Below, one piece after another: positions 4,608 through 63,539 of a stretch of 64,000 bases of DNA. Each line of letters begins with the position of its first letter. The first letter of the stretch is position 1. The position numbers and the translations under genes are program-made. Source of the DNA: [Ruminococcus] lactaris ATCC 29176 (GTDB lineage Bacteria; Bacillota; Clostridia; Lachnospirales; Lachnospiraceae); NCBI RefSeq assembly GCF_025152405.1, contig NZ_CP102292.1:248001-312000 (forward strand). Reading direction: 5' to 3'. The notes under the pieces were generated by a model, which had not been told where the DNA came from, ran no database searches, and was given only the letters and a program-made list of their open reading frames with translations.

Positions 4608-5900
4608 TTATGCAGCTGCTAAAGCAGGTCTTTGATACTGCTTACAGTGTTCTTCTGGTGACCGAAGCTCAAATGCCTTTTCATCACGAAGAACAGCAAA
4701 TACGATGTTGCAGACTTTATGCATTACAGCACCGATTGCAACCATCTTAGGCTTTTGTCCAGACTTTAATTCGTAATACTTACGGAGGTATGGATTGATG
4801 CCCTCTCCATTACGTTTTGTACGAATGGAGGCGAGTGCTACTGCAAAGATAGCACGGCGCGCGATTCTGGAGCCACGTTTGCTCATATGTAACTGAGTGC
4901 CAACGAATTTTCCAGATTCATTTACTTCAGGATCTAATCCGAAGTAAGCAAAAAGTTGTTTTGGATTACGGAATGCTGAGAAATCACCTATTTCGCACAT
5001 GATTGTTACAGCAGTCAGAAAGCCAACACCTGGGATTGTATTTAAAAGTTTAATCTGCTGAATAAACTTCTCGTTTTTATTGAATGTAATCAGCTGCCTA
5101 ATACGATTCAGTATGGAATCCAAAGCAGAATCAAGCTTTTCAACAAGGTCCAAAGTTAAAAAGATATTGAAGTAGATACTGTCTATTTGACATCCAAATG
5201 TCTTTGCAGCATTAGCTGCAGCACAGAGTTTCTCATATCTTTCAGAAGCTTTGGCAAGACCTTTTCGTGAAGCTTTTGATATTTTTTCAATCATGGTCTT
5301 CTTATGACCACGAAGTATCTTGTCTGGAGTACCGTACTGGCGAAGAATCATTGTTGAGGTCTTGCCGGTAACATCACAGAAAACGTCAAGATACTGAGGA
5401 AACACGGTATGCAGGTCTCCTTTAAGTTTATTGATATGAGCAGAACGCTCATCAGTTAAATCGTAATACTTACGGGTAAGGCTACGCAGTTCAAGAACCA
5501 GCTTTGCTGGGAACTGGGAAACAGGAATATCTTTTGATAATCCTAGTTTGGCAATACCTTTAGAATCGATTTTATCATTTTTTACTTTTCTGATATTTCC
5601 ATTCTTAGTAGAATGTGTAATAATAGGATTGATTATGGACGCGTTAAAACCACAATCAACAAGATAGCAGAAGAGCGGGAAATGATAAATCCCAGTGGAT
5701 TCTAGAAAGGTGCGACTTTCTAAGGAATACAGCTCTTCTGCTTTTTTAATTTCAGAAACAGCTCGTTCCAAAGAATCCTTATTATTGTGAGTAATCTTGA
5801 AAGGTTTCAAGATCACTGTTTCGTCTGGCGCAAGAATTGTCATAAAGCTAAAAGCTGAACCGACATCAATGCCGACGGAAATATAGTTTTTGTTATGCAT
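4608..5900 (-). CDS. IS110-family transposase (DEDD recombinase)
   Basis: The protein is 430 residues long from the ATG at 5900, which has a strong GGAAGGAG site 8 bases upstream; a longer frame to 5945 has none. The N-terminal RuvC-like DEDD domain shows SVGIDVGSAFS (first Asp), LESTGIYHFP (Glu), and KVKNDKIDSKGIAKLG (paired Asp). The C-terminal Transposase_20 domain shows LLNTIPGVGFLTA and LFAYFGLDPEVNESG, with a conserved Ser in MSKRGSRIARRAIF. It appears intact. In this family the enzyme works with a bridge RNA to recombine target and donor DNA. Confidence 0.93.
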   Translation of the reverse strand: MHNKNYISVGIDVGSAFSFMTILAPDETVILKPFKITHNNKDSLERAVSEIKKAEELYSLESRTFLESTGIYHFPLFCYLVDCGFNASIINPIITHSTKNGNIRKVKNDKIDSKGIAKLGLSKDIPVSQFPAKLVLELRSLTRKYYDLTDERSAHINKLKGDLHTVFPQYLDVFCDVTGKTSTMILRQYGTPDKILRGHKKTMIEKISKASRKGLAKASERYEKLCAAANAAKTFGCQIDSIYFNIFLTLDLVEKLDSALDSILNRIRQLITFNKNEKFIQQIKLLNTIPGVGFLTAVTIMCEIGDFSAFRNPKQLFAYFGLDPEVNESGKFVGTQLHMSKRGSRIARRAIFAVALASIRTKRNGEGINPYLRKYYELKSGQKPKMVAIGAVMHKVCNIVFAVLRDEKAFELRSPEEHCKQYQRPALAAA

Positions 5901-6090
5901 TATATGCTCCTTCCGATAGGGTTCCATAAAAAACAATGAATACACTACCTGGTGCGTTATACGGGTATAGCTTAATTGCTCCCAACCAGCCTAAAACATA
6001 AATTTTCATTGATGGAATGACAGTCTTAAGTTACGGGTATTACTGGACATAAGCCAGCTCCCTAGGAGAAAATCGTCCTTTTCCCTATCC
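5901..6090 (-). ncRNA. Candidate bridge RNA region of the IS110 element
   Basis: The non-coding segment directly upstream of the IS110 transposase is where IS110-group elements encode their bridge RNA. It contains an imperfectly repeated ACGGGTAT motif (about 5958 and 6034) and short self-complementary stretches that could form the loops. The assignment rests on position and family knowledge, not on a verified fold. Confidence 0.4.
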
Positions 6091-11312: not shown

Positions 11313-12686
11313 ATGGAATCTCAGACAAAGAAAAGTAAATATGAAATAGATATGTGCAATGGGACGATTATGGATAAGCTGATTTCTTTTTCACTTCCAT
11401 TGATGCTTTCAGGAATCCTTCAGTTGATGTTTAATGCGGTAGATATTATTGTGGTTGGAAGGTTCAGCGGAAGTCAGTCATTGGCGGCAGTTGGATCAAC
11501 AACAGCATTGATCAATATGTTTACCAATCTTTTTATTGGAATTTCTCTTGGAGCAAATGTTCTGGCAGCACGTTTTTATGCGGCAAAGCGAGAAAAGGAG
11601 ATGTCAGAGACGGTACATACCGCAATTACACTGGCATTAATCAGCGGGATCGTCATGGCATTTGTGGGAGTGATCTTTTCGAGATTTGCGTTAGAATTGA
11701 TGGATACACCGGATGATGTGATCGGACTGTCAACGTTATATATGAGAATCTATTTTTTAGGAATGCCGTTTTTTATGCTCTACAATTATGGTGCAGCCAT
11801 TCTGAGGGCCGTCGGAGATACGAAGCGTCCACTGTTCTTCCTGGTTGCTGCAGGAGTGATCAATGCCGGTCTGAATCTGCTGCTGGTAATTGTTTTTGAC
11901 ATGGGTGTGGCAGGAGTTGCGATCGGAACAATCGTTTCCCAGATGATTTCAAGTATTTTGGTTTTACGATGCCTTTGTAGATCGGAAGGCAGTTACAAAC
12001 TATCATTTTCAAAGCTTCGGATCAGGGGAATCTATATGAAGCAGATCTTTCAGGTTGGTATTCCGGCGGGAATACAGAGTACAGTGATTAATTTTTCAAA
12101 TGTACTTTTGCAGTCTTCTGTAAACTCTTTTGGGTCTACCGCAATGGCAGGATATACTGCAGCCAATAATATTTTCGGATTTTTATATGTGACTGTAAAT
12201 TCCGTGACACAGACATGTATGAGTTTTACGAGTCAGAATTATGGTGCAGGAAAAAGTAAACGAATGGATAAAGTTCTGATTGACTGTATTATTTTATCAG
12301 TAGTTATTACATCGATTCTTGGCGTCAGTGCGTATGGATTTGGTCCGGAACTGTTGAAGATTTATACGGAAGATGCAAAAGTTATCCAGTGTGGAATGGA
12401 AATTCTTTTATATACAACGGTAACGTATTTCCTGTGTGGACTGATGGATCTTTTTCCGGGGGCATTGAGAGGAATGGGACACTCAGCCGTTCCGATGATC
12501 CTTTCGGTAATCGGAACAGTAGGGACAAGAATTGTCTGGATTTTCTGGATCTTTCCTGCACATCATTCATTGGATATTTTATTTATTTCTTATCCTGCAT
12601 CCTGGATCATTACGATCATTATGCAGGTAATCTGCTATTATTTCGTGAGAAAAAAAGTACACCGGGATATGCAGCGGCAGGTATAG
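11313..12686 (+). CDS. MATE family efflux transporter
   Basis: The 457-residue protein has about twelve hydrophobic helices. The N-terminal lobe carries LPLMLSGILQLMFNAVDIIVVGRFSG and the repeated second lobe carries VGIPAGIQSTVINFSNVLLQ, both typical of MATE proteins of the DinF/NorM-like clostridial branch. It would export drugs or cationic metabolites using a H+ or Na+ gradient. The start is ATG at 11313 with AAAGGAG about 12 bases upstream, a rather long spacing. The gene stands alone between a divergent fliB-like gene and a downstream RNA methyltransferase. Substrate unknown. Confidence 0.9.
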   Translation: MESQTKKSKYEIDMCNGTIMDKLISFSLPLMLSGILQLMFNAVDIIVVGRFSGSQSLAAVGSTTALINMFTNLFIGISLGANVLAARFYAAKREKEMSETVHTAITLALISGIVMAFVGVIFSRFALELMDTPDDVIGLSTLYMRIYFLGMPFFMLYNYGAAILRAVGDTKRPLFFLVAAGVINAGLNLLLVIVFDMGVAGVAIGTIVSQMISSILVLRCLCRSEGSYKLSFSKLRIRGIYMKQIFQVGIPAGIQSTVINFSNVLLQSSVNSFGSTAMAGYTAANNIFGFLYVTVNSVTQTCMSFTSQNYGAGKSKRMDKVLIDCIILSVVITSILGVSAYGFGPELLKIYTEDAKVIQCGMEILLYTTVTYFLCGLMDLFPGALRGMGHSAVPMILSVIGTVGTRIVWIFWIFPAHHSLDILFISYPASWIITIIMQVICYYFVRKKVHRDMQRQV

Positions 12687-12696
12687 AGTAGAAAAA

Positions 12697-12788
12697 ATAA
12701 AGTCAGATCTGATGAAAGCAGTCAGGGTATAAGAGAGAAGAGATAAAGTCAGATCTGATGAAAGCAGTCAGGATATAAGGCAGAAGAG
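12697..12788 (+). repeat. Tandem duplication, two 46-bp units
   Basis: Two adjacent copies of a 46-bp unit starting ATAAAGTCAGATCTGATG (12697 and 12743) differ at only a few positions. They fill the spacer between the MATE and TrmH-like genes. No function is evident; a recent slippage duplication is likely. Confidence 0.85.
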
Positions 12789-12829: not shown

Positions 12830-13654
12830 GTGATTCGGATGATAGAAATAACGGATTTTCATGCACCAGAGCTGGATATATTTGCGAGAAAGACCGAGGC
12901 ACAGTTGTTAAATAAAGATCACCCGGAGGAGGGAATGTTTATTGCAGAAAGTCCAAAGGTGATTGAGAGAGCCTTGAATGCCGGCTACACTCCGGTAGCG
13001 GTATTGGTAGAGAAAAAGCAGATTGAAGGTGAGGCAGCCTCTGTTCTTGCACGATGCGATGAGATTCCGGTTTATACAGCAGAATTTGATGTGCTGGCAC
13101 AACTGACAGGGTTTAAGCTGACAAGAGGAATGCTGTGTGCTATGCGACGGAGGGGATTGCCAGAAGTGGAAAAGGTATGTCAAAATGCAAAAAAGGTTGC
13201 AGTTCTTGAAAATGTAATGAATCCGACGAATGTGGGAGCGATTTTTCGTTCTGCCGCAGCTTTAAATATGGATGCAGTACTTCTGACAGGCGGATGCAGC
13301 AATCCATTGTATCGCAGAGCAAGCCGTGTCAGTATGGGGACGGTGTTTCAGATTCCGTGGACATTTATCGGAGAAAAGCAGGAAGACTGGATTGAAAATG
13401 GAATCAGGAGATTACATGGCCTGGGATTTCAGACTGCGGCTCTTGCTCTGAGCGATGATTCTGTGAGTATTGATGATAAAAGACTCCGTGAAGAGAAAAA
13501 ACTGGCAATCATCCTTGGGACAGAAGGTGACGGACTTGCAGAGCAGACAATCGCAGAGTGCGATTATACGGTCAAAATACCGATGACTCATGGAGTTGAT
13601 TCATTAAATGTCGCTGCGGCAAGTGCAGTGGCTTTTTGGGAGCTGGGGAGATAA
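12830..13654 (+). CDS. TrmH/SpoU-family RNA 2'-O-methyltransferase
   Basis: The 274-residue protein shows the three SPOUT (SpoU) motifs: motif 1 NPTNVGAIFRSAAAL, motif 2 LGTEGDGL, and motif 3 IPMTHGVDSLNVAAASAVAF, which bind S-adenosylmethionine in a knotted fold. The N-terminal 90 residues form the substrate-binding domain (FIAESPKVIERAL), as in 23S rRNA methyltransferases of the TsnR/RlmB type. It likely 2'-O-methylates an rRNA nucleotide; the exact site cannot be read. The start is GTG at 12830 with a strong AGGAGGGG site; an internal ATG lies three codons later. Its stop codon abuts, and shares two bases with, the outer end of composite element 1. Confidence 0.88.
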   Translation: MIRMIEITDFHAPELDIFARKTEAQLLNKDHPEEGMFIAESPKVIERALNAGYTPVAVLVEKKQIEGEAASVLARCDEIPVYTAEFDVLAQLTGFKLTRGMLCAMRRRGLPEVEKVCQNAKKVAVLENVMNPTNVGAIFRSAAALNMDAVLLTGGCSNPLYRRASRVSMGTVFQIPWTFIGEKQEDWIENGIRRLHGLGFQTAALALSDDSVSIDDKRLREEKKLAIILGTEGDGLAEQTIAECDYTVKIPMTHGVDSLNVAAASAVAFWELGR

Positions 13655-13959
13655 ATTTGTATTTGTTGGAATGATACGCTTGTAAAGCAAAAGACTTCTT
13701 TATGGCGAAGCGGACGCGGAAAGCAGAGATATTCCCTCGCGGTGCAGACCCGCTTTACCTCAGCCCGTTGACCGTTTGTAACTCGAAAGTGGAAATCTTC
13801 GTGCAATGGCGCTCGATTTACTTTCTCTAACAAACGCTGCAAAGTGTCTTCGGAACGCTCCTGTTAATGCACCTGCTCAGGAACACCCTGCTTTCCGCTG
13901 ACCATCTCAATAAGAAGTTATACCGACTCCACAGCGTATTCACTCAACAATGCAAATTT
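13653..13959 (-). ncRNA. Arm A1, candidate structured RNA unit
   Basis: This 307-bp unit is over 90 percent identical by eye to arm A2 (19831-20139) in inverse orientation. It is bounded by inverted AAATTTG-type ends. Read on the minus strand it has a closing stem CGGAAAGCAG/CTGCTTTCCG, an inner GGTGCA/TGCACC stem, a long imperfect arm, and the two core motifs shared with the B arms (GGAGCGTTCCGAAGAC and TCAACGGGCTGAGGTAAAGC). The shared core in different sequence backgrounds suggests RNA-level conservation. The core is reminiscent, from memory, of HEARO/omega-RNA, but I could not verify this and no IscB-type gene is present. Confidence 0.55.
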
Positions 13960-13978
13960 CCAAAGGATAGAAAAAGCC

Positions 13979-14074
13979 GGATGGCTATTGACTAAGATAT
14001 TCGATCGTAAATATCAGATAATAGATATTGTATTTACTATTTGATGGAGCGTTTATCTTAGTTGATAGCCATCC
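13979..14074. repeat. 96-bp perfect-ended palindrome inserted in composite element 1
   Basis: GGATGGCTATTGACTAAGAT at 13979 pairs with ATCTTAGTTGATAGCCATCC ending at 14074, with two mismatched positions. About 54 bp of A+T-rich sequence lies between. The other composite copy lacks it, and it interrupts the sequence GCCGGATG that there runs straight into arm B. It is probably a small insertion (MITE-like) or a remnant of one. Confidence 0.7.
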
Positions 14075-14077
14075 GTA

Positions 14078-14111
14078 GGCATCAAAGTCGGGGGCTTTTG
14101 CCCCCGACATC
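14078..14111 (-). repeat. 34-bp short palindromic repeat, copy S3
   Basis: GGCATCAAAGTC, then GGGGGC-TTTT-GCCCCC, then GACATC. This is the most symmetrical copy of the short form. It lies next to the 96-bp palindrome within composite element 1, so several small elements have accumulated at one spot. Confidence 0.75.
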
Positions 14112-14122
14112 TTTCTTATTGG

Positions 14123-14439
14123 AATTTCATCTTTGTTGGGAGAAAATATCCTGATGCGAGGAAAGTTTTCTGACTTGAAAAGCCTAATATCCGCCCTTGC
14201 TGTTGCGTGAGCAGTGCATTGACAAGGAGCGTTCCGAAGACACTTTGCCCAACTTGTTAAGGAACGTAAACAGGAGTGCCTCTGCACGAGTGTTTCCACG
14301 TTCCTGTTACAAGTTGTCAACGGGCTGAGGTAAAGCGGGTCCTGCACTGCGATGCAACAACAAGTGTGGATATGGACGCTCTTCTGTCAGAAACACTTCC
14401 TGCTGTCGCAATATTTTCACTCCAACAACTACAAATTTT
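14123..14439 (+). ncRNA. Arm B1, candidate structured RNA unit
   Basis: Read on the plus strand, stems are visible: GTTGCG...CAGTGCA with TGCACTGC..GCAAC, CAACTTGT (14250) with ACAAGTTG (14309), GGAACG (14261) with CGTTCC (14299), and a GTGC/GCAC hairpin. The same helices exist in arm A with different bases (for example GAAAGT with ACTTTC), that is, with compensatory changes. The core motifs GGAGCGTTCCGAAGAC (14225) and TCAACGGGCTGAGG (14317) are identical in both arms. Its 3' end touches the end of the citrate synthase gene on the other strand. Confidence 0.55.
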
Positions 14440-14449
14440 TATTTTCACA

Positions 14450-15829
14450 TCACTCTCTCTCATCCCTTGCATAAAACTCAGTATGATGTCCGACATATTT
14501 ATAAGCCGGACGGATGATCTTACCGGCATTGAGCAGTTCTTCCAGTCGGTGGGCACTCCAACCGGCAATACGGGCGATCGCAAAGAGCGGTGTGAACAGT
14601 TCTTCCGGGATTCCAAGCATGGTATAGACAAATCCACTGTAAAAATCAACATTGGCACAGACTGGCTTGAACATTTTGCGGTGAGTCATGATCTCCTCTT
14701 TGGCAAGACGCTCTACACGGTCATACAAAGCAAATTCATTTTCCAGTCCTTTTTCTTTGGCAAGTTTTTCAGCGAAACTTTTCAGAAGCTTTTCTCTTGG
14801 ATCGGATAAAGTATAAACTGCATGTCCCATACCATAGATCAGTCCTGAATGGTCGAAAGCCTCTTTATTCAGAATCTTGCGGAGATAAAGCCGGATTTCG
14901 TCTTCATTATCCCAGTCCTTTACAGAAGCTTTAATATCGTCAAACATTTTCTGGGCTTTCAGGTTTGCACCACCATGTCTTGGTCCTTTCAGTGAACCGA
15001 TGGATGCAGCAGTCGAGGAATAAGTATCAGTACCGGAAGAGGTAACAACGTGTGTCGTGAAAGTTGAGTTGTTACCACCACCATGCTCTGCATGAAGAAC
15101 AAGGGCGATATCGAGAACTTTTGCCTCCAGCTCGGTATACTGTCCATTTGGACGGAGCATCAGGAGAAGATTTTCCGCAAGTGAGCGTCCTTTTTCAGGA
15201 TTACGGATGAGAAGTGTTTCATCTTTGCGGAAATGTCTGTATGCATGGTAAGAATAAACTGCGATCAGTGGCATTTTAGCAATCAGCTCTAATGACTGGC
15301 GAAGTACATTTTCCACAGAAATGTCTTCCGGATTGTCATCGTAAGTATACAATGTCAGAATACAACGCTGCATGGCATTCATGATATTGGAATTGGAAGC
15401 TTTCATGACAACATCACGGACAAAACGTCCACTTAATGCCTCCAGTTCAAACATAATTCCAAGGAAACGTTTTAATTCTTCTTCTTTTGGAAGACGACCA
15501 AATAAAAGAAGGAAAATAGTTTCTTCAAATCCAAATTTCTTGCTTCCAAGACCATGAACAAGATCATTAACATTGATTCCCTGATAATAAAGACTGCCTT
15601 CTGCAGGAATCTTCCGTCCGTTGATGACATCGAATCCACAGACATCGGACACTTCTGTCAGTCCGGTCAGGACACCTTTACCATTAGAATCACGAAGTCC
15701 ACGCTTTACATCGTATTCTTCATAGAGATTCGGATCAATTCTGTGGGTATTCAGCAGAACCTGTTCCAGATAATCCATTTCATTTTTTAAGCTGCTGTTA
15801 TTTGCAATCAAAGTTTCTTCTAAAGCCAT
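14450..15829 (-). CDS. gltA: Citrate synthase
   Basis: The 459-residue protein is full length for the citrate/2-methylcitrate synthase family. Catalytic residues are in place: His in LHAEHGGGNNSTF, His in GMGHAVYTLSDPR, and Asp in ANVDFYSGF. SLKGPRHGGAN forms the oxaloacetate/CoA site, and GWSAHRLEEL with the C-terminal Arg completes it. It condenses acetyl-CoA and oxaloacetate to citrate, feeding 2-oxoglutarate and glutamate synthesis. It is alone on its strand, downstream of and co-directional with a SulP gene from which a strong hairpin separates it. Its 3' end abuts composite element 1, and the region holding gltA, sulP and glpK is bracketed by inverted repeats. Confidence 0.95.
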   Translation of the reverse strand: MALEETLIANNSSLKNEMDYLEQVLLNTHRIDPNLYEEYDVKRGLRDSNGKGVLTGLTEVSDVCGFDVINGRKIPAEGSLYYQGINVNDLVHGLGSKKFGFEETIFLLLFGRLPKEEELKRFLGIMFELEALSGRFVRDVVMKASNSNIMNAMQRCILTLYTYDDNPEDISVENVLRQSLELIAKMPLIAVYSYHAYRHFRKDETLLIRNPEKGRSLAENLLLMLRPNGQYTELEAKVLDIALVLHAEHGGGNNSTFTTHVVTSSGTDTYSSTAASIGSLKGPRHGGANLKAQKMFDDIKASVKDWDNEDEIRLYLRKILNKEAFDHSGLIYGMGHAVYTLSDPREKLLKSFAEKLAKEKGLENEFALYDRVERLAKEEIMTHRKMFKPVCANVDFYSGFVYTMLGIPEELFTPLFAIARIAGWSAHRLEELLNAGKIIRPAYKYVGHHTEFYARDERE

Positions 15830-19524: not shown

Positions 19525-19810
19525 AAATTTGTAGTTGTTGGGGGAAAATATCGCGACAGCAGGAAGTGCTTCTGACAGAAGAGCGTCCATATCCACACTT
19601 GTTGTTGCATCGCAGTGCAGAACCCGCTTTACCTCAGCCCGTTGACAACTTGTAACAGGAATGTGGAAACACTCGTGCAGAGGCACTCCTGTTTACGTTC
19701 CTTAACAAGTTGGGCAAAGTGTCTTCGGAACGCTCCCTGTCAATGCACTGCTCACGCAACAACAAGGGCGGATATTAGGCTTTTCAAGTCAGAAAACTTT
19801 CCTCGCATCC
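19525..19810 (-). ncRNA. Arm B2, candidate structured RNA unit
   Basis: Read on the minus strand this is the near-identical partner of arm B1 (14153-14439), with changes such as GGAACG to GGAATG in paired regions and a shorter 5' end. The helices and both core motifs are kept. It lacks the inner terminal repeat seen at the 5' end of B1, so the junction with arm A2 may be the ancestral form. Confidence 0.55.
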
Positions 19811-19830
19811 GGCTTTTTTCTATTCTTTTT

Positions 19831-20139
19831 AAATTTGCATTGTTGAGTGAATACGCTGTGGAGTCAGAAAAAAACTTCTTACTGCGACTGCCAGCGGAAA
19901 GCAGGGTGTTCCTGAGCAGGTGCATTAGCAGGAGCGTTCCGAAGACACTTTGCAGCGTTTGTTAGAGAAAGTAAATCGAGTGCCTTTGCACGAAGATTTC
20001 CACTTTCGAGTTACAAACGGTCAACGGGCTGAGGTAAAGCGGGTCTGCACCGCGAGGGAATATCTCTGCTTTCCGCGTCCGCTTCGCCATAAAGAAGTCT
20101 TTTGCTTTACAAGCGTATCATTCCAACAACTACAAATTT
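19831..20139 (+). ncRNA. Arm A2, candidate structured RNA unit
   Basis: On the plus strand the unit folds with an outer stem CGGAAAGCAG/CTGCTTTCCG. Inside are CGTTTGT (19956) with ACAAACG (20013), GAAAGT (19967) with ACTTTC (20002), and a GTGC/GCAC hairpin. The core motifs GGAGCGTTCCGAAGAC and TCAACGGGCTGAGGTAAAGC flank this long arm. Relative to arm B the paired positions have changed together. Short peptides that could be translated across the unit show no family features. Confidence 0.55.
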
Positions 20140-20927
20140 ACATCCAATAAGATCTTCTCAAGAACATCCTCAACGGAAGATGTCACCGCATCAGCGTGAT
20201 CTGCAACTCCGGGAGCGGCATTAGCCATGGCATAACCTGTGCCGACCAGTTCCAGCATTTCAATATCATTATACTGATCGCCAAAGGCAATACATTCCTC
20301 CGGGGTGATATCGAGAACTTTCAGAAGATGCTTCAGTGCAGCTCCCTTATTTGTACCCGGTGCAATAAAATCAATCCAGATAGTTCCGGAAGTTACGATC
20401 TTAATCTCAGAGCCAAAAATACTCTGAAGATGCTTTAAGTATGCATTCAGGACATCAGGTCCATCGATCATATTGCAGATAGCAATCTTGAGGAACGGAC
20501 CATTGATCTGGCTGAGATCTTCGACAATCTCTGTTTTATTGTGCATAACATTGACAATGTGGTCTACAAATTCGGGATTCCGGTCTTCAATCAGGCAGGT
20601 ATCTTCTCTGGAGACAATGATTTCAAAATGATCAGATTTCTTCACTTCCCGGATGATCCGGTAAGCAAGGTCATCTCTGATCGTTCCGCGGAAAATAAGT
20701 TTGCCCTGATGCATACAGATTGAGCCGTTCTCTCCAATATAAGAAATTTCATCTTTGATCTTATCAAATACGATTCGCTCATTAGTATACTGGCGACCAC
20801 TTGCGGCTACGAAATAAATCCCTTTCTGTGTCAGTGAATGAATCAGGCTGATTGCACGGGGAGTAAGCTCCTGGGTACCATCCTGAAGAAGTGTTCCGTC
20901 AAGGTCACTTGCAATTAATTTGATCAT
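20130..20927 (-). CDS. Cof-type HAD-IIB phosphatase
   Basis: The 265-residue protein has HAD motif I ASDLDGTLLQDGT (nucleophile Asp plus acid/base Asp), motif II VAASGRQY, a C2B cap domain (about 85-190), the motif III lysine in APGTNKGAALKHLL, and motif IV AFGDQYNDIEMLELVG. This is the Cof/YbiV/YidA-like sugar-phosphate phosphatase group, which hydrolyses diverse phosphorylated metabolites in the cytoplasm; the substrate is unknown. The ATG follows TGGAGG. The last codons and TAG stop (GTAAATTTGTAG) come from the terminus of composite element 2, so insertion may have set the present C-terminus. Confidence 0.9.
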   Translation of the reverse strand: MIKLIASDLDGTLLQDGTQELTPRAISLIHSLTQKGIYFVAASGRQYTNERIVFDKIKDEISYIGENGSICMHQGKLIFRGTIRDDLAYRIIREVKKSDHFEIIVSREDTCLIEDRNPEFVDHIVNVMHNKTEIVEDLSQINGPFLKIAICNMIDGPDVLNAYLKHLQSIFGSEIKIVTSGTIWIDFIAPGTNKGAALKHLLKVLDITPEECIAFGDQYNDIEMLELVGTGYAMANAAPGVADHADAVTSSVEDVLEKILLDVNL

Positions 20928-55749: not shown

Positions 55750-55943
55750 GATGTCGGGGTCAAAAGCCCCCGACTATGATACCTACGGATTGTTACGCAC
55801 TACGTGCTCCCACAATCCTACCCAACATTCGCATATCGTGGTGCTTACGCCCCACTTTTATGCTCATATTGGGGCGGGTCACAAAGTCATTCTACCACTA
55901 GTGTGCGAGCACATGTGGTGTCAGACCTTTTGACCCTGGTATC
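55750..55943 (+). mobile_element. 194-bp MITE-like element, copy L1
   Basis: It begins GATGTCGGGGTCAAAAGCC and ends GACC-TTTTGACCC-TGGTATC, the imperfect inverse of the start. It is flanked by 7-bp direct repeats TACAAAT (55743-55749 and 55944-55950). Same length as copies L2 and L3, but with the most sequence differences, so probably the oldest. It sits between a TATAAT box (55717) and the ribosome site of the radical SAM gene. Confidence 0.85.
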
Positions 55944-55962
55944 TACAAATGGGAGGAAGAGA

Positions 55963-57678
55963 GTGAAAGTTTTACTTGCTGCAGTCAATGCAAAATATAT
56001 TCATTCCAATTTAGCGGTATACTGTCTGAGAGCTTATGCAAAAGAAAGGTATCCTGAAAGTGAGATTGCCATTGCGGAATATACGATCAATCAGCCGTTT
56101 GATGAGATCCTGACGGATCTTTACCGGAGAAACCCGGATGTACTCTGCCTGTCCTGTTATCTGTGGAATATAACGGAGGTGGGACAGATCCTCCGGGAGA
56201 CCGCAAAGATCCTTCCGAAGACTGCCATCTGGCTGGGAGGCCCGGAAGTCTCCTACAATGCCAGGGAGGTGCTGGAAAACTATCCGATGGTGCAGGGGAT
56301 CATGAAAGGCGAGGGCGAAGAGTCTTTTACAGAACTGGTTGCATATTATGGGAAATTAAAGGAAAGCAAGCAGCTCAGAGATATTGAGGGTCTGATGTTC
56401 CGGGATGAGAATGGGGAAATAATTGAAACTGAGAACCGTCCGATCCTGGATCTGAGTACCGTACCCTTTGTATATGAACATATCGAAGATTTTCAGAACA
56501 GGATCATTTACTATGAGTCCAGCAGAGGATGTCCATTTTCCTGCAGTTACTGTCTTTCTTCCATAGATAAATGTCTCAGGTTCAGAAAGATAGAACTGGT
56601 AAAAAAAGAATTGCAGTTTTTTATCGATCATGAAGTGCCGCAGGTGAAATTTGTGGACAGGACATTTAACTGTAAGCATGACCATGCCATGGCGATCTGG
56701 AAGTATATAACGGAGCATGATAAAGGCATTACAAATTTTCATTTTGAGGTGGCAGCAGATCTTCTGAATGAGGAGGAAATCGAACTGATCCGCAGGATGC
56801 GTCCGGGACTGATCCAGCTGGAGATCGGAATCCAGTCTGCCAACCCGGAGACGATCCGGGAGATTCACAGAACAATGGATCTGAAAAAGGTACGTGCGAA
56901 AGTAGAGCGGATCAGAGAAAAAGGAAATGTGCATCAGCATCTGGATCTGATTGCAGGACTTCCTTATGAGAATTATGAGAGTTTCGGACATTCATTTAAT
57001 GAGGTCTATGCAATGCATCCGGATCAGTTGCAGCTTGGATTCCTGAAAGTACTTCACGGTTCTTTTATGTATGATAATGCAGAAGCGTATGGACTGGTGT
57101 GGCAGGATCGTCCGCCTTATGAAGTACTGTTTACCGACTGGCTCCCGTATGGGGATGTGATCCGTCTGAAAAAAGTAGAAGAGATGGTGGAAGTACACTA
57201 TAACAGCGGGCAGTTTGCGAATACGATGGAGCATCTTGTGAAGGAGTTCCCGTCTCCGTTTGATCTGTATGTGGAGCTGGGGGAATATTATGAAAAAAAT
57301 GGACTGTTCGGGATCAACCATTCCCGGCTGGCACGGTATGAAAATCTGTGGCAGTTTATCAGGACGCAGATTCCGGATCGTGCAGACAGCTACAGAGAGT
57401 GGCTGACGCTGGATCTGTATTTGCGGGAAAATGTAAAAAATCGTCCGGCATTTGCAGGGGAGAACCAGGTCACGAAAGAAGAGATGACTGCATTTTACAG
57501 GGAAGAGACAGAAACCCACAGATACTTGAAAGAATATGACGGCTTTGATGCAAGGCAGCTCCGCAAGATGACGCATCTTGAAAAAATTGACGGAAAATAT
57601 CTTCTCTTTGATTACAGGAATAGAAGCCGGCTGAGTCAGAATGCGGCAACTTATGAAGTATGCTTTTCTAATGAATAA
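55963..57678 (+). CDS. B12-binding-domain radical SAM protein (DUF4080-type)
   Basis: The 571-residue protein has an N-terminal cobalamin-binding fold (1-130; VLLAAVNAKYIHSNLAVYCLRAYA, WLGGPEVSYN), a radical SAM core with the cluster motif RGCPFSCSYCLSS (CxxxCxxC; about residue 190), and a C-terminal DUF4080 part (about 390-560). B12-radical SAM enzymes catalyse methylations or ring rearrangements; the substrate is unknown. The start is GTG at 55963, directly after GGGAGGAAGAGA; an upstream ATG-frame (55804) runs through the MITE and is rejected. A copy of the same MITE follows immediately after the stop codon. Confidence 0.9.
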   Translation: MKVLLAAVNAKYIHSNLAVYCLRAYAKERYPESEIAIAEYTINQPFDEILTDLYRRNPDVLCLSCYLWNITEVGQILRETAKILPKTAIWLGGPEVSYNAREVLENYPMVQGIMKGEGEESFTELVAYYGKLKESKQLRDIEGLMFRDENGEIIETENRPILDLSTVPFVYEHIEDFQNRIIYYESSRGCPFSCSYCLSSIDKCLRFRKIELVKKELQFFIDHEVPQVKFVDRTFNCKHDHAMAIWKYITEHDKGITNFHFEVAADLLNEEEIELIRRMRPGLIQLEIGIQSANPETIREIHRTMDLKKVRAKVERIREKGNVHQHLDLIAGLPYENYESFGHSFNEVYAMHPDQLQLGFLKVLHGSFMYDNAEAYGLVWQDRPPYEVLFTDWLPYGDVIRLKKVEEMVEVHYNSGQFANTMEHLVKEFPSPFDLYVELGEYYEKNGLFGINHSRLARYENLWQFIRTQIPDRADSYREWLTLDLYLRENVKNRPAFAGENQVTKEEMTAFYREETETHRYLKEYDGFDARQLRKMTHLEKIDGKYLLFDYRNRSRLSQNAATYEVCFSNE

Positions 57679-57872
57679 GATGTCGGGGTCAAAAGCCCCC
57701 GACTTTGATGCCTACGGATTGCTCCGTGCTACGCACTCCCACAATCCTGCCCAATCTTCGCATATCGTGGGATTATCATCCCACTTTTATGCTCATATTG
57801 GGGCGGGTCCTAAGGTCTTTCGCCCACCTATGAGCAAGCTCATGTGGGCTTAGACCTTTTGACCCTGGCATC
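57679..57872 (+). mobile_element. 194-bp MITE-like element, copy L2
   Basis: A full-length copy with perfect 8-bp target duplications ATGAATAA (57671-57678 and 57873-57880). The left duplication includes the stop codon of the radical SAM gene. Internal stems include GTGGGATTATCATCCCAC. A 57-codon frame (57680-57853) crosses it. Confidence 0.9.
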
Positions 57873-57930
57873 ATGAATAAGATAATGGTATAATGAGAAA
57901 TATTTTAGTGAACATGGAAAGGAAATAAAA

Positions 57931-58032
57931 ATGAATTTTTATGATAAGAAAGTAAGAAGACTGATCTCAGTAATTATTCTTGTAGTGATTCTTGCTATGG
58001 TTGCGACCATGGTGATTCCGTATCTTATATAG
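57931..58032 (+). CDS. 33-residue small membrane protein
   Basis: After AAAGGAAATAAAA, ATG at 57931 gives a 33-residue peptide: a charged start (MNFYDKKVRRL), then a single hydrophobic helix (ISVIILVVILAMVATMVIPYLI). The good ribosome site and 14-bp gap to the next gene support real translation. Similar short proteins starting NFYDKK occur in relatives as far as I recall; the function is unknown. Confidence 0.7.
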   Translation: MNFYDKKVRRLISVIILVVILAMVATMVIPYLI

Positions 58033-58046
58033 GAAGAGGCAGGAAA

Positions 58047-59105
58047 ATGAGATTAGGAAAGATTACGCAGGCAGCATGGAATCGTTCCGTGAGAAAACCG
58101 CTGAAAAAAAAGCAGTGTACCGTTGGAAAAATGGCATGGGAACAGAAATGTGCAGAACTGGAACAGCAGATCCAGAGGACGGAGCAAAGTCAGAAGACAG
58201 AACAAGATCAGAAGACAGAACAAGATCAGAAGATCGAAACAGGACGGATGACTGTGTGGAGTACAGCATCTGCCGGTGGGAAAAATGCGAACGTCGGAGC
58301 ATACGCAGTCATAAAAGCAGCAGGTGAGCTTGCTTCACAGAAAGTTATGGCAGAAGGCGTTTCCATTCATGCAATCCTGCCGGAGCAGATGCAGGAAGAA
58401 GATGTAAAGCATCTGACAGATACAGTAGGAGAGCTTTGCAAAAAAATGAATCTTGAAATCTGTCAGATACAGGTGGAAACGAGTTCTTTCGTGACGCAGA
58501 TGGTAGTAACGGCAACTGCGGTCGGGGAAAAAAAATCGACTGCGATTAGAGAGCAGGAAATGACTGTGGCAGGAGAGGAGCTTCTTCTCTGTGGTTATGC
58601 CGGACTGGAAGGGACGCTGCGTATTTTAGATGAGTCAGAGGAGGAACTGGGGACAAGATTTGTTCCGGTTTTCCTGGAAAAGGCGAAACTTCTGCGGGAA
58701 AAGCTGGTTCTCCCGGATCAGATCCTCTCTGTAAAAGAACAGGTTTCCGACATCAGGCAGATCGGAAGTGGCGGAATCCTGGCAGCATTATGGGAGCTGG
58801 GCGAAGAATTGCAGACCGGATTTGATATTGATTTTTCAAAGATTGCACTGAAGCAGGAAACGGTAGAAATCTGCGAATTTTATCAGTTGAATCCCTATCT
58901 GATGACTTCAGCCGGAAGTTTTTTACTTGTAACAGGGCAGAGTGAAGAAGTGATCGCATGTCTTGCAGAGCAGGGTGTATCAGCAGTACGGCTGGGATGC
59001 ATGAAAGATCAGAATGCAAGAGTGATAAAAAATGGAGAAGAAACCCGGTATCTAGACAGACCGGCAGCAGATGAACTGGCAAGGTGGTGGAAAGAACATG
59101 CTTAA
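58047..59105 (+). CDS. AIR synthase (PurM)-like protein
   Basis: The 352-residue protein has an N-terminal variable region (1-75) with an 18-bp tandem repeat coding Lys-Thr-Glu-Gln-Asp-Gln (58191-58226), then a region resembling the PurM/HypE/ThiL fold: VSIHAILPEQ, VVTATAVGEKK, LLLCGYAGLEGTLRIL, then in the C-terminal domain QIGSGGILAALWELGEELQTGFDIDFSKI and YLMTSAGSFLLVTGQSEEV. The N-terminal ATP-binding motifs of true AIR synthases are not obvious, so enzymatic activity is doubtful. Its end overlaps trmL by 8 bp. Confidence 0.72.
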   Translation: MRLGKITQAAWNRSVRKPLKKKQCTVGKMAWEQKCAELEQQIQRTEQSQKTEQDQKTEQDQKIETGRMTVWSTASAGGKNANVGAYAVIKAAGELASQKVMAEGVSIHAILPEQMQEEDVKHLTDTVGELCKKMNLEICQIQVETSSFVTQMVVTATAVGEKKSTAIREQEMTVAGEELLLCGYAGLEGTLRILDESEEELGTRFVPVFLEKAKLLREKLVLPDQILSVKEQVSDIRQIGSGGILAALWELGEELQTGFDIDFSKIALKQETVEICEFYQLNPYLMTSAGSFLLVTGQSEEVIACLAEQGVSAVRLGCMKDQNARVIKNGEETRYLDRPAADELARWWKEHA

Positions 59106-59607
59106 TATCGTACTTTTTGAGCCGGAGATCCCGGCAAATACAGGAAATATCGGAAGAACGTGTGTGGCGACAGGTACAAGACTGCATCTGATCGAGCCGC
59201 TTGGATTCCGAATTAATGAAAAATCCCTGAAGCGTGCGGGGATGGATTACTGGAAAGATTTAGATGTAACAACTTATATTAATTATCAGGATTTCCTGGA
59301 TAAAAATCCGGGAGCAAAGATCTATATGGCAACGACAAAGGCACATAAGGTCTATACAGAAGTGGATTACGAACAGGATTGTTATATTATGTTCGGAAAG
59401 GAAAGTGCGGGAATCCCGGAAGAGATTCTTGTAGATCATGAAGAAGACTGTATGAGGATTCCCATGATCGGGGATATCCGTTCACTGAATCTTGGAAATT
59501 CAGTGGCGATCGTATTATATGAGGCATTAAGACAGAACGGATTTGAGGGAATGAATCTGAACGGGCATCTCCATGAACTGAGTTGGAAATCAGAGACCGG
59601 TGAATAA
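59098..59607 (+). CDS. trmL: tRNA (cytidine(34)-2'-O)-methyltransferase
   Basis: The 169-residue protein is a minimal SPOUT methyltransferase: FEPEIPANTGNIGRTCVATGTRLHLIEPLGF, FGKESAGIPEEIL, and IPMIGDIRSLNLGNSVAIVLYEAL, the SAM-binding knot. It methylates the 2'-O of the wobble nucleotide in tRNA-Leu. ATG 59098 lies within the previous gene's end, after AAGGTGGTGG; a longer frame (59071) lacks a site. Confidence 0.93.
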   Translation: MLNIVLFEPEIPANTGNIGRTCVATGTRLHLIEPLGFRINEKSLKRAGMDYWKDLDVTTYINYQDFLDKNPGAKIYMATTKAHKVYTEVDYEQDCYIMFGKESAGIPEEILVDHEEDCMRIPMIGDIRSLNLGNSVAIVLYEALRQNGFEGMNLNGHLHELSWKSETGE

Positions 59608-59792
59608 CAGGTCGTTGTTCAATACGGAAGTTTGTAAACAGCGGCAGGATCAGATGGTTCGAGAGAAGATGCATATCATTGACAAACCTATCAGTCTGGT
59701 ATATAATACAGCCTGCTTTTAAGGTGTGAAGAAAAAAGATATTTAATTATAGAAGAAAAAAATTAACAGGACAGGATGAGGAGTAACAAAAT

Positions 59793-60557
59793 ATGTTGAC
59801 GCAGTTTTCAAGAACAGAACTTCTTCTCGGAAAAGAAGCAATGGACAGACTGGCAAATGCAAAGGTTGCGGTTTTTGGAATAGGCGGAGTAGGCGGTTAT
59901 GTCTGTGAAGCACTGGTGAGGAGCGGAGTCGGAGCATTTGATCTGATCGATGATGATAAGGTCTGCCTGACGAATCTGAACCGTCAGATCATAGCGACAA
60001 GAAAGACAATTGGAAAATACAAGACGGATGTGATGAAAGAACGAATCCTGGAGATTAATCCAAAGGCAGAAGTGACGATGCACAAGTGTTTCTTTTTGCC
60101 GGAAAATGCCGAGGAGTTTCCGTTTGAAGAATATGATTATGTGGTTGACGCAGTGGACACTGTGACGGCAAAGATCGAACTGGTCATGAAGTGCAAAGAG
60201 AAAAATGTTCCGATCATCAGCAGTATGGGAGCAGGAAATAAGCTGGATGCGAGTGCATTCCGTGTAGCAGATATTTACAAAACGAAAGTCTGCCCACTGG
60301 CGAAAGTGATGCGTCGGGAGCTGAAAAAGCGTGGCGTGAAGAAATTGAAAGTCGTTTACTCAGAGGAGCAGCCGACAAGACCGCTGGAGGATATGTCGAT
60401 CAGTTGTCGGACAAACTGTATCTGCCCGCCGGGAGCGAAACATAAGTGTACAGAGCGAAGAGATATTCCAGGAAGTGTGGCATTTGTACCATCGGTTGCA
60501 GGGCTGATCATTGCAGGTGAAGTGATCAAAGATCTTGCACAGGTATCAAAAAAATAA
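59793..60557 (+). CDS. tcdA: tRNA threonylcarbamoyladenosine dehydratase
   Basis: The 254-residue protein is a ThiF/MoeB/E1-like ATPase. It starts FSRTELLLGKEAMDRL, has the ATP-binding GIGGVGGYVCEALVRSGVG, LIDDDKVCLTNLNRQI, YVVDAVDTVTAKIEL, a structural or catalytic Cys in SCRTNCICPPGAKHKC, and SVAFVPSVAGLIIAGEVI. TcdA cyclises t6A in tRNA to ct6A. The next gene starts 28 bp after; ttcA-like and tcdA may share a transcript, both acting on tRNA. Confidence 0.9.
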   Translation: MLTQFSRTELLLGKEAMDRLANAKVAVFGIGGVGGYVCEALVRSGVGAFDLIDDDKVCLTNLNRQIIATRKTIGKYKTDVMKERILEINPKAEVTMHKCFFLPENAEEFPFEEYDYVVDAVDTVTAKIELVMKCKEKNVPIISSMGAGNKLDASAFRVADIYKTKVCPLAKVMRRELKKRGVKKLKVVYSEEQPTRPLEDMSISCRTNCICPPGAKHKCTERRDIPGSVAFVPSVAGLIIAGEVIKDLAQVSKK

Positions 60558-60585
60558 GATACGGTTAAGAAGACAGGAGAAAGAG

Positions 60586-61731
60586 ATGAGTATTTCAATA
60601 GAAGAACTGAACAGGATGAATCCGGACAGTTATCAGATTATTGATATCAGAGATGAGACGGAGATCGGTCACGGAGCGATTCCGGGAGCAGTTGCTGTGG
60701 CAACAGAGGAGATTGAGGGAAATGAGAAAATAGATTTCTCCAAAAAGCTGGTGATCTGCTGCAGCAGAGGAAAATACAGTGTAGATGTAGCAGAGGAACT
60801 GAGTGAAAAAGGAATCGATGCGGAGAGCCTTGAAGGCGGATATATAGCCTGGCTGATTGACAATATGAAGCAGAAAGAAGCTGCTGAAAAAGCCGGAGAA
60901 GGCAGTTTTGCAAAGGACGTAGAGCAGAGCTTAAGGAAGAAATTCCGCAAAAGTATCTGGTGCAAATTCACAAAAGCGATCAATGAATACGAACTGGTGA
61001 AGCCGGGAGATAAGATCGCAGTCTGTATTTCCGGTGGAAAAGATTCTATGCTTATGGCAAAGCTTTTCCAGGAGTTAAAGAGACACAATAAGTTTGATTT
61101 TGAAGTGAAATTTCTTGTTATGGATCCGGGCTACAGTCCGGCAAACCGACAGGTAATCGAGGAAAATGCGAAAAGACTGGAGATTCCGATCGAGATTTTT
61201 GAGTCAGATATTTTTGAATCTGTATACAATGTAGAAAAATCCCCATGTTATTTATGTGCAAGAATGAGGCGTGGTTATCTTTACAGTCATGCACAGAAAA
61301 TGGGATGCAATAAGATCGCACTGGGACATCATTATGATGATGTGATTGAGACGATCCTGATGGGAATGCTTTATTCCGCACAGTTTCAGACGATGATGCC
61401 GAAGCTGCATAGTACAAATTTTGAGGGAATGGAACTGATCCGTCCATTGTATCTCGTCCGGGAAGATGCCATCAAGGCATGGAGAGATTATAATGATCTG
61501 CATTTCATTCAGTGTGCATGTAAATTTACAGATACCTGTACGACATGTAATAATGAAGAAAATCAGTCCAAGAGGATGGAGACAAAAGAATTGATCGCAA
61601 GACTGAAAAAAGTGAATCCATATGTAGAGGGAAATATTTTCAAGAGTGTGGAGAACGTGAATCTGGATACGATCGTAGCGTATAAGCAAAAGGGAGTGAA
61701 ACACCATTTCCTGGATGAATATGATCGGTAG
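60586..61731 (+). CDS. Rhodanese domain fused to TtcA-like tRNA sulfurtransferase ATPase
   Basis: The 381-residue protein has an N-terminal rhodanese domain (about 1-100; YQIIDIRDETEIGHGAIPGAV, with the active Cys in KLVICCSRGKYSVDVAEELSEKG) and a PP-loop ATPase of the TtcA type (about 115-381): CISGGKDSMLMAKLF, MDPGYSP, CYLCARMRRGYLY (CxxC), LGHHYDDVIETILMG, and CKFTDTCTTCNNE. It likely adds sulfur to tRNA, with the rhodanese domain supplying persulfide, a built-in donor not present in E. coli TtcA. The ATG at 60586 follows AGGAGAAAGAG; an upstream frame (60535) overlaps tcdA and has no site. Confidence 0.87.
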   Translation: MSISIEELNRMNPDSYQIIDIRDETEIGHGAIPGAVAVATEEIEGNEKIDFSKKLVICCSRGKYSVDVAEELSEKGIDAESLEGGYIAWLIDNMKQKEAAEKAGEGSFAKDVEQSLRKKFRKSIWCKFTKAINEYELVKPGDKIAVCISGGKDSMLMAKLFQELKRHNKFDFEVKFLVMDPGYSPANRQVIEENAKRLEIPIEIFESDIFESVYNVEKSPCYLCARMRRGYLYSHAQKMGCNKIALGHHYDDVIETILMGMLYSAQFQTMMPKLHSTNFEGMELIRPLYLVREDAIKAWRDYNDLHFIQCACKFTDTCTTCNNEENQSKRMETKELIARLKKVNPYVEGNIFKSVENVNLDTIVAYKQKGVKHHFLDEYDR

Positions 61732-61804
61732 AAAAAGTGGATTATAAAAGAATGAAAAGAGCTGTGAAGAGGGAGCATATCACGATTAAAGCGACAGCCC
61801 CGTT

Positions 61805-63088
61805 TTATTTTCTCTTCCCTTCCCCCTCCAACAGCCATTTCCAGACAGGAACAACATCGATTTCAATACCATCGCAATTCAAAGTGGCTTCCTCGCTATT
61901 GGTTATAAGAATACATTTTGAATCAGGTATGAAATTATTTAACTTAACAAATGCCCGGGTTTCGCGTTCTTTGGTATCGATATTGTCAAGAACCTGCATA
62001 CTGACCTGGATCGCAAGTTTTTCTGATGGAACGTAGAAGTCTATTTCGACATTATTTTCAAAGAAATATACATTTTCAGTACCGTAACGTCTGATCAGTT
62101 CGATGGCGACAAGATTTTCCAGTTGGGCAGACTTACAGTCCAGCAGGACGAGTCCAAGGGGACCGGTATCCATAAAATAGTATTTGGGAGAAGTTTCTTT
62201 TTCTACCAGTTTTGCTGCATAATTTTGCAGAGTAAAAAGCAGGTAAGAATCAGTCATATATCCTACATAATTAATCACAGTCTGTTTGGCAATCGAAGTT
62301 CCGGTACTTTTTAAGATGTTCGTCAGCCTGTTAAAAGACAGAGGTTTTGTAATGGATTCAGCGATCTTCTTTAGAATGAGTCTCACAGCAAAGTCATTGG
62401 TAATTTTATTTCTTGTGATAATGTCTCCAAGGTATACGGTCTGATAGATGCTGTTCAAAAAAGTTCTTTTATTTCTGATTTCGACTAATTCAGGGAAAGC
62501 CCCATAAGTTACATATTCATTATATCGGTTCAGGACGTCAGCCCGGTCTTTGGTACTGATTGCATCCAGGTAATTCTTTTCCATATGATTTGCAATGAGG
62601 TATTCGGAAAAAGAATATGGATAGACATTCAGGATTACAAATCGTCCACCTAAAGTAGAAGCTATCTCGCTGCTAAGCATCTTACTGTTGCTTCCAGTAA
62701 TATTAATTCGATATTTCATGTCTGCAATTCTGCGGACAAACTTCTCCCATCCATTGATATTCTGAATTTCGTCAAGAAACAGATAAGGCTTTGTATCTGT
62801 CCCGGAAATTTCCAGTCCGATTTCTAAAATGGTATTCAGATCATCTGCTGTCATTTCCAGAAGACGTTCATCTTCAAAGTTCACGTAAACAATTTGGGAC
62901 AATGGAACACCATTTGCTTCCAACCGTTTTATCTGTTGATACATCATATAAGATTTTCCGGTTCTCCGGATACCGACAAAGCAATAGTTTACATTATCTT
63001 CCAGTGAATAGTGTCTTGGTATCATAGGATTGTTGAGATAAATTTCTTTTTGATCGATCATGATCTGCTTCAGGGTATCTCTGTTCAT
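61805..63088 (-). CDS. AAA ATPase with DUF4143 domain
   Basis: The 427-residue protein has an AAA_14-type ATPase at the N-terminus: Walker A-like FVGIRRTGKSYMMYQQI, Walker B PYLFLDEIQNINGWE, and NITGSNSKMLSSEIASTLGGR. A C-terminal DUF4143 domain follows (about 200-400; YFMDTGPLGLVLL, VAIELIRRYGTENVYFFENNVEIDFYV), which resembles a restriction-endonuclease-like fold. Such proteins are common, often in accessory regions, and their role is unknown. ATG at 63088 follows GGAGGTGAC. It is a lone gene near a MITE. Confidence 0.88.
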   Translation of the reverse strand: MNRDTLKQIMIDQKEIYLNNPMIPRHYSLEDNVNYCFVGIRRTGKSYMMYQQIKRLEANGVPLSQIVYVNFEDERLLEMTADDLNTILEIGLEISGTDTKPYLFLDEIQNINGWEKFVRRIADMKYRINITGSNSKMLSSEIASTLGGRFVILNVYPYSFSEYLIANHMEKNYLDAISTKDRADVLNRYNEYVTYGAFPELVEIRNKRTFLNSIYQTVYLGDIITRNKITNDFAVRLILKKIAESITKPLSFNRLTNILKSTGTSIAKQTVINYVGYMTDSYLLFTLQNYAAKLVEKETSPKYYFMDTGPLGLVLLDCKSAQLENLVAIELIRRYGTENVYFFENNVEIDFYVPSEKLAIQVSMQVLDNIDTKERETRAFVKLNNFIPDSKCILITNSEEATLNCDGIEIDVVPVWKWLLEGEGKRK

Positions 63089-63303
63089 AATATTGTCACC
63101 TCCATCATATAAGACCATTATATATTAAATTATTTTCCTCCACAAGACAAATTATTATAAATAGTGTCTTATTCACAAGACACTATTAGAATATTATTGT
63201 CTATTAAGAAAGACGGCTATAAATAATATATACAAATATGATAAAAATTATTCCTGTCTGCTTTCCTGTAATACTTTAAAAGCAGAAAATTGTCGAATAA
63301 AAT

Positions 63304-63497
63304 GATGTCGGGGTCAAAAGCCCCCGACTTTGATGCCTACGGATTGCTCCGTGCTACGCACTCCCACAATCCTACCCAATATTCGCATATCGTGGGATTA
63401 TCATCCCACTTTTATGCTCATATCGGGGCGGGTCAAAAGGTCTTTCACCCACCTATGAGCAAGCTCATGTGGGCTTAGACCTTTTGACCCTGGCATC
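63304..63497 (+). mobile_element. 194-bp MITE-like element, copy L3
   Basis: Full-length copy, over 95 percent identical to L2 by eye. Flanked by ATAAAAT (63297-63303) and ATAAAAA (63498-63504), a near-perfect duplication. A 57-codon frame crosses it as in L2 and ends in the same residues (MSKLMWA). Confidence 0.85.
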
Positions 63498-63539
63498 ATA
63501 AAAATTATTAGCCCCACTTATCAATGTAACGAAGAAAAT

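Follow-up and report, generated by a model that had tools for sequence, protein, structure and literature searches.

What kind of sequence are the two long folded arms, A and B, that lie between a TrmH-like methyltransferase gene and a citrate synthase gene of [Ruminococcus] lactaris ATCC 29176, and do they belong to the host or to an element of their own? The window analyzed here is a 64,000-nt stretch (positions 248001-312000) of a single-contig 2.73-Mb genome, the genus of which is Mediterraneibacter in the genome set used. The first copy of the repeat occupies 13653..14439, with boundaries that are common to the other units with two flanks and to the end-repeat pattern, and its parts are, in order, an end repeat, one arm, the central hairpin, the other arm in inverted orientation and a second end repeat, the usual length of a unit being about 760 nt. 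The pattern scan places the left end repeat AAATTTGTATTTGTTGG at 13653..13669 (plus strand) and the right end repeat AAATTTGTAGTTGTTGG at 14422..14438 (minus strand). Arm A (13653..13950) has its structured strand on the minus strand, outward toward the methyltransferase gene, and arm B (14110..14439) on the plus strand, outward toward the citrate synthase gene; both are delimited by their near-full genome copies and folds. Their conserved structured cores were located by the covariance model R1 at 13734..13875 (minus, 117.6 bits) and 14211..14355 (plus, 129.7 bits), respectively. The middle of this copy, which folds with a z of -9.2, contains the central long hairpin GCCGGATGGCTATTGACTAAG.../...CTTAGTTGATAGCCATCCG (inverted repeat I3, 13978..14075) and, by consensus scan, a terminator-like hairpin (14087..14108, plus). 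Inverted-repeat, unit and end-repeat searches identified a second copy in the window (19525..20139), which has the opposite orientation, a short middle and a length of 615 nt; its arm B core lies at 19607..19751 (minus, 129.4 bits) and its arm A core at 19917..20058 (plus, 120.6 bits). Between a transporter gene and the methyltransferase gene, a 46-nt unit is tandemly duplicated (12680-12771, 87% identical).

The inverted end repeats of the element are about 17 nt long (AAATTYGTRKTTGTTGG; pattern AAATTTGTA(T/G)TTGTTGG). With up to two mismatches, this pattern has 98 matches in the genome, versus 6 for the reversed pattern used as a control, and the matches coincide with A/B elements in all but a handful of places. 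Genome searches, with 40 first-look candidates scored for each arm, returned at least 46 matches for arm A, at least 34 of them spanning at least 288 of 298 positions, and at least 72 for arm B, at least 32 of which span at least 298 of 330 positions. The near-full copies of A and B are mostly paired across a gap of about 20-340 nt (1.6-1.7 kb in three cases); a near-full B partner is lacking for a few copies of A. The 33 units with both ends readable measure 615-2354 nt (615-961 nt without large inserts), one of them (L066) being a composite span of two elements and an Rpn gene.

An earlier note on this DNA had held that the two arms differ in sequence and keep their pairing, and we could confirm on the structured strands the helices that it named (CGTTTGT/ACAAACG in arm A versus CAACTTGT/ACAAGTTG in arm B, and GAAAGT/ACTTTC versus GGAACG/CGTTCC) as well as both core motifs. 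The GTGC/GCAC hairpin, which it had assigned to both arms, occurs in arm B of copy 1 and in each arm of the second copy; however, the apical hairpin of arm A in copy 1 is GCGC/GCAC with one C-A mismatch. An alignment of 20 sequences with an RNAalifold consensus has at least one double compensatory change in 43 of 55 pairs. In 81 sources (the window and 80 of 278 loci), the covariance model R1 found 118 matches, 109 of them distinct. In the alignment of these 109 sequences, 97.1% of the 4468 paired cells are standard pairs, and double changes occur at 34 of the 41 pairs. The covariation score is 0.567; none of 500 shuffles attained these values, and among controls shifted by 1-3 columns the highest score was 0.115. 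The fit of the alignment to the model favours this outcome; the slid controls carry the same relatedness. The R1 model is an unbranched rod of paired segments with conserved internal loops between them (GAGCGUUCCGAA opposite UGAGGUAAAGCGG; GUUA opposite GUUAC) and, in most members, an apical GAGU...ACGA hairpin. ORFs of 84-120 aa traverse the arms, as they might if these were simply palindromic DNA or a decayed coding repeat with chance pairing; this explanation is barely credible, however, since the compensatory changes far exceed those of the slid controls, the wobble pairs are strand-specific, and the core lengths of arm A (112 nt) and arm B (113 nt) differ by one base, so that the reading frame is not kept. 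The view of the arms as one structured family with compensatory changes, rather than a protein or a simple DNA repeat, is strongly supported.

The two strands of the arms are not equivalent. Arm A folds at -115.5 kcal/mol on the minus (outward) strand, with a z of -7.0, and at -95.2 on the plus (inward) strand, and arm B at -127.8 on the plus (outward) strand, with a z of -8.6, a small difference from the -124.4 of its other strand. The modelled pairs on the outward strand include 183 G-U versus 22 A-C, and the outer stem (60 nt on each side outside the model, 110 arms) includes 355 G-T versus 224 A-C in an alignment that treats G-T and A-C alike. On account of this excess and of the outward folds, selection appears to act on a single strand, which is the outward one in each arm, either as RNA or as DNA when single-stranded. 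Among 35 pairs of neighbouring R1 matches (in which L097 and L141 are the same place), 34 run minus-then-plus, that is, outward and back to back, and the sole exception (L066) is formed by two adjoining elements, one arm belonging to a complete pair and the other to the next element. Arms A and B are a new structured single-strand family that occurs in outward pairs within a bounded repeat. Stand-alone copies or a new family had both been left possible; the latter is the better alternative, whereas the back-to-back arrangement speaks against copies that stand alone. The end repeats and the stop-codon abutment described below were missing from the earlier note.

The core had also been likened to HEARO/omega-RNA. 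HEARO elements are structured, multi-copy RNAs in some genomes and are mobile, and the arms are likewise structured, multi-copy and mobile-looking. That they are stand-alone HEARO/omega-RNA copies of an IscB-type transposon is nevertheless highly improbable, and the likeness was not borne out: the HEARO model (RF02033) has no match in any of our Rfam searches, either at the gathering threshold in the window or at E<=10 in 13500-14600 and ten related loci, and the fold is rod-like, with no branch points. Unlike IscB systems, moreover, the element has no IscB-like gene among the ORFs of its three long copies, and the middles of the other copies are too short for IscB. At the gathering score, Rfam has six matches in the window, none of them at 13653-14439 or 19525-20139. 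In the lists extended to E<=10 or 5, the arms have sub-threshold matches only, mostly to microRNA-precursor models, which attract any long hairpin; one locus (L085) has a sub-threshold Clostridiales-1 match outside the arm. Elsewhere in the window, three copies of the Clostridiales-1 RNA (RF01699) lie within 8 kb (55777-63498, minus), and a c-di-GMP-I riboswitch (RF01051; 4253-4347, plus) adjoins an ORF (4608-5945, minus) that we take to encode an IS110-like transposase.

R1 matches were found in 44 of 58 Mediterraneibacter genomes and in none of the remaining 14, with at least 55 matches in the genome studied here, 52 in G005, 35 in G004 and 33 in G066; as model R1 misses other arm families, these numbers cover R1-type arms. 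An order-wide sample of 392 genomes, searched with stricter filters and at most eight candidates scored per genome, gave matches in six, namely five Mediterraneibacter genomes and G401, which belongs to another genus of the same family. In G401, the four copies consist of one arm each, about 215 nt long and, as judged by eye, with ends of the AAATTT type; thus the paired form may have arisen from an ancestor with a single arm. Among named genomes, an exact pattern scan yielded 117 stretches, and the 80 of them listed belong to records titled Mediterraneibacter, Lachnoclostridium, [Ruminococcus] faecis, Ruminococcus, Clostridium sp., Lachnospiraceae bacterium and, once, Dorea. The exact pattern has no match in viral contigs, and arm B has none in the plasmids searched. 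Four short unannotated faecal 'Bacteriophage sp.' records (MT839318, MT839411, MT838007, MT838801) partly match arm B at 79-92% identity; because each match sits at a record end, we read them as contig ends at a repeat.

Many ends of the element abut the stop codons of neighbouring genes. In copy 1, the TAA stop codon of the TrmH-like methyltransferase gene (13652..13654, plus) consists of a T that precedes the element and of AA, the first two bases of the element, and the citrate synthase stop lies 11 nt before the opposite boundary; in the second copy, the TAG stop codon (20130..20132, minus) of a HAD-like gene (ORF 20130..20927) lies inside the end repeat. Over the whole genome, an ORF stop falls within 3 nt of the boundary at 36 of 62 distinct element ends, and in other species at 31 of 44 ends, versus 4 of 618 (0.6%) and 7 of 440 (1.6%), respectively, for controls with the boundary moved outward by 15-200 nt; the ends are partly dependent, with up to six own-genome cases involving copies of the Rpn module and some other-species ends being orthologous (for example, those of L077 and L219). 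The commonest abutment, a TAA whose T precedes the element and whose AA belongs to its end, accounts for 34 of 67, and several elements have an abutting stop on both sides. The longest candidate ORF (at least 60 aa) at the 62 own ends reads toward the element at 52, away from it at 6 and in neither way at 4. The methyltransferase next to copy 1 ends with FWELGR, and its 17 orthologues end with FWQLRK, FWQLGRH, FWELGRR up to longer forms such as FWELGRKTAGQE; the gene thus stops near its natural end and is not deeply cut. The element flanks are C-poor on the strand running toward the element, as is expected of coding strands that run toward it, and complementarity between the two flanks was rejected, its score being 200, versus 197.7 for permuted pairs.

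The TrmH site is occupied here and in none of 17 orthologues from the genus, that is, in one of 18 genomes compared; the 17 orthologues have neither the element nor a citrate synthase neighbour within the fetched flank, and hence the pre-insertion junction is not readable there. For two element sites of G004, we compared the corresponding loci of G076, G002 and G066; in one gene, these genomes share 89%, 84% and 81% identity with G004, respectively. At the first site, the element of G066 is of the same kind as that of G004, with 84% identity over 2.2 kb, and G076 and G002 carry different hairpins. At the second, the gene/element junctions are co-located in all four species and the interiors differ: G004 has an R1 arm pair, G066 a remnant of 260 nt and G076 an R1 arm next to an unlike left part, whereas the two hairpin arms of G002 are of other kinds. 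Neither of these two sites is cleanly empty in the three relatives, which carry related or different hairpins; the L215 site of G002 spans two contigs (C65, C23), both ends of which were inspected unjoined. Since interiors differ at the same junctions, a site can persist while its interior changes, and arm families appear to be exchanged between fixed junctions. Five arms of other families, grouped by eye, all fold better on the outward strand (for example, -183 vs -132). Further long hairpin arms lie at like stop-codon junctions in related species (L274 690-1488, L275 1007-1386, L278 1-870), with Rfam matches to E<=5 that are all far below the gathering score. At yet another site (L134-L137 from G007, G079, G063 and G071), presumably between acyltransferase-like and symporter-like genes, two arms flank differing cargo genes, which we take to be CPBP protease-like, DUF2000-like and RelBE-like in the three of these four loci for which ORFs were listed.

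We give an even chance to the reading of this repeat as a non-autonomous multi-copy mobile element of Mediterraneibacter with arms that are recognised single-stranded. Its movement is suggested by the copy number, the end repeats, the TrmH site occupied only here and the single-arm relatives, and the recognition of its arms as single strands by the covariation and the G-U/G-T excess; the Rpn composites described below, the outward pairs and the stop-codon abutment also count in its favour. The end repeats would define the moving unit, and the folded outward strand of each arm, as RNA or single-stranded DNA, would be the feature to which a protein supplied in trans responds. Transcription from both genes would, after insertion, end at the central hairpin, so that the element would take over the old shared 3' region and be tolerated there.

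No element copy with its own transposase was identified, IS630 genes being present in the middle of two copies. The three long middles contain one Rpn-family gene (PF04754) and two IS630-family transposases (L062 912-2183, minus; L063 884-2074, minus), and the latter look like secondary insertions; several other copies have about 120-200 additional nt within this middle hairpin, which may be a small element derived from IS630. All six Rpn genes of this genome (L167-L172) are flanked on both sides by element sequence, the five others being 93-95% identical to the query copy, and the same upstream Rpn flank abuts the element end in all six; Rpn and the element look like a composite unit copied together. 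As a mobilising enzyme Rpn was rejected: of the Rpn loci in other genomes, 29 were examined (the best match of each genome, out of more than 100 listed), and none has an R1 match in its 1.5-kb flanks, and G036, which is element-rich and 89% complete, has no Rpn match. In this genome, Rpn is more plausibly a passenger that was copied along with the element. A Y1/RAYT transposase was rejected as a partner too, as it does not correlate with copy number over the 58 genomes: Y1 (PF01797) has no match in G072, G074, G035, G065 and G078, each with 1-5 copies, and long Y1 frames are present in genomes without copies (for example, G061 and G068).

Several results weigh against the mobile element. A search for target-site duplications in the 33 units (lengths of 2-9 at offsets of 0-6 on either side; the set includes the composite span and five units that have one flank in common) found none that exceeds permuted pairs by 4 or more, and thus there is no direct trace of a known transposition reaction. 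No transposase could be linked to the element, Y1 and Rpn both failing in the comparisons across genomes, and viral contigs (exact pattern) and plasmids gave no match, the four partial faecal phage matches aside. At 10 of the 62 ends, the longest candidate ORF does not read toward the element. Were the end repeats alone enough for movement, there would be no explanation for why the structure of the arms is selected. Finally, at least one site is common to two species, which fits a long-resident host feature equally well.

Such a feature could be a host-serving RNA at convergent gene ends, with one arm acting as a barrier at each gene's 3' border, an explanation that we hold to be a real but minority possibility. 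Transcription from the opposite gene would make the folded outward strand before antisense entry, and the fold would stop transcription or mark the transcript for cleavage, the element being retained as a shared 3' end. The shared site, the ORFs that read toward the element at most ends, the terminator-like stretch of the central hairpin, and the preference for the outward strand in the core, the outer stem and all five other arms are consistent with this role. However, R1 copies range from 0 to at least 55 within one genus, unlike a host-required part, and the TrmH site is occupied in a single genome of those compared; the outward strand of arm B in copy 1 is nearly matched in folding by the other strand. 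Moreover, a consensus scan for an internal promoter of outward transcription found no sigma-70-like site in the element, with 1.4 expected by chance, and therefore the outward strand would require read-through past the central hairpin.

It is unlikely, although conceivable, that the repeats represent a new RNA-based class of genetic element, in which paired outward structured RNAs are inserted at stop codons and arm families are exchanged between fixed junctions; insertion would probably proceed via an RNA intermediate that is attached to the coding strand at its 3' end, and the element would become the shared 3' end of convergent genes. A further and quite unlikely explanation is an RNA-derived element, in which an outward RNA with its 3' end at the element terminus is reverse-transcribed into the stop-codon site, with priming from the coding-strand 3' end at the stop codon; this reaction on both sides of a break would give the inverted pair. 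The outward orientation, the missing duplications, the abutment on the coding-strand 3' side and the unlike left and right arms at one site fit such an origin; however, arms A and B mostly occur together with the same kind of middle in this genome, and thus the whole unit seems to be copied rather than two single arms. The strand-specific fold, the back-to-back pairs and the ends at stop codons together suggest one of two things, a route of insertion that reads the ends of genes or a function for which convergent 3' ends are selected; both are testable, as Mediterraneibacter has cultured members.

Searches of the full-text literature, including passages of PMC2267715, PMC2229807 and PMC8040213, gave no description of this repeat or of such stop-codon-abutting repeats; the arm family may be, without a name, among the 3161 candidate structured RNAs from human microbiomes of which PMC8040213 reports. 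The Delihas review (PMC2229807) describes the CIR repeat of Caulobacter (Chen and Shapiro) as intergenic and multi-copy, with an RNA model of two stem-loop arms and a linker and with a GANTC methylation motif, and its mobility mechanism as unknown. By this description, and judging from the folds, our element resembles CIR in being intergenic and multi-copy and in having two separate stem-loop arms with a linker; unlike the GANTC-centred CIR, its arms are inverted copies of one family that face outward, and it has end repeats and stop-codon abutment. For ERIC/IRU, RUP and Correia/NEMIS, the same review gives TA termini, target duplications and lengths of about 100-200 bp (PMC2229807). So described, they share with our element the nature of a small non-autonomous palindromic repeat, inverted end repeats, a mostly intergenic position and strong stem-loops, whereas our element has no TA terminus, no duplication in the 33 units and a length of 615-961 nt. 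REPs are about 20-40 nt long, and REPINs/BIMEs are two inverted hairpins, intergenic and often at gene 3' ends. The two inverted hairpin arms that form one unit are a common trait of REPINs/BIMEs and our element; its arms, however, are about 300 nt long with covarying internal helices, and it shows no tracking with Y1 in the genus. The nearest known kinds are thus the bacterial palindromic repeats (CIR, ERIC, RUP, REPIN), with the missing duplication and the missing Y1 link as misfits. Such repeats are usually treated as hairpins placed loosely between genes; the element described here differs by its strand-specific covarying fold, its back-to-back pairs and its many ends at stop codons in several species.
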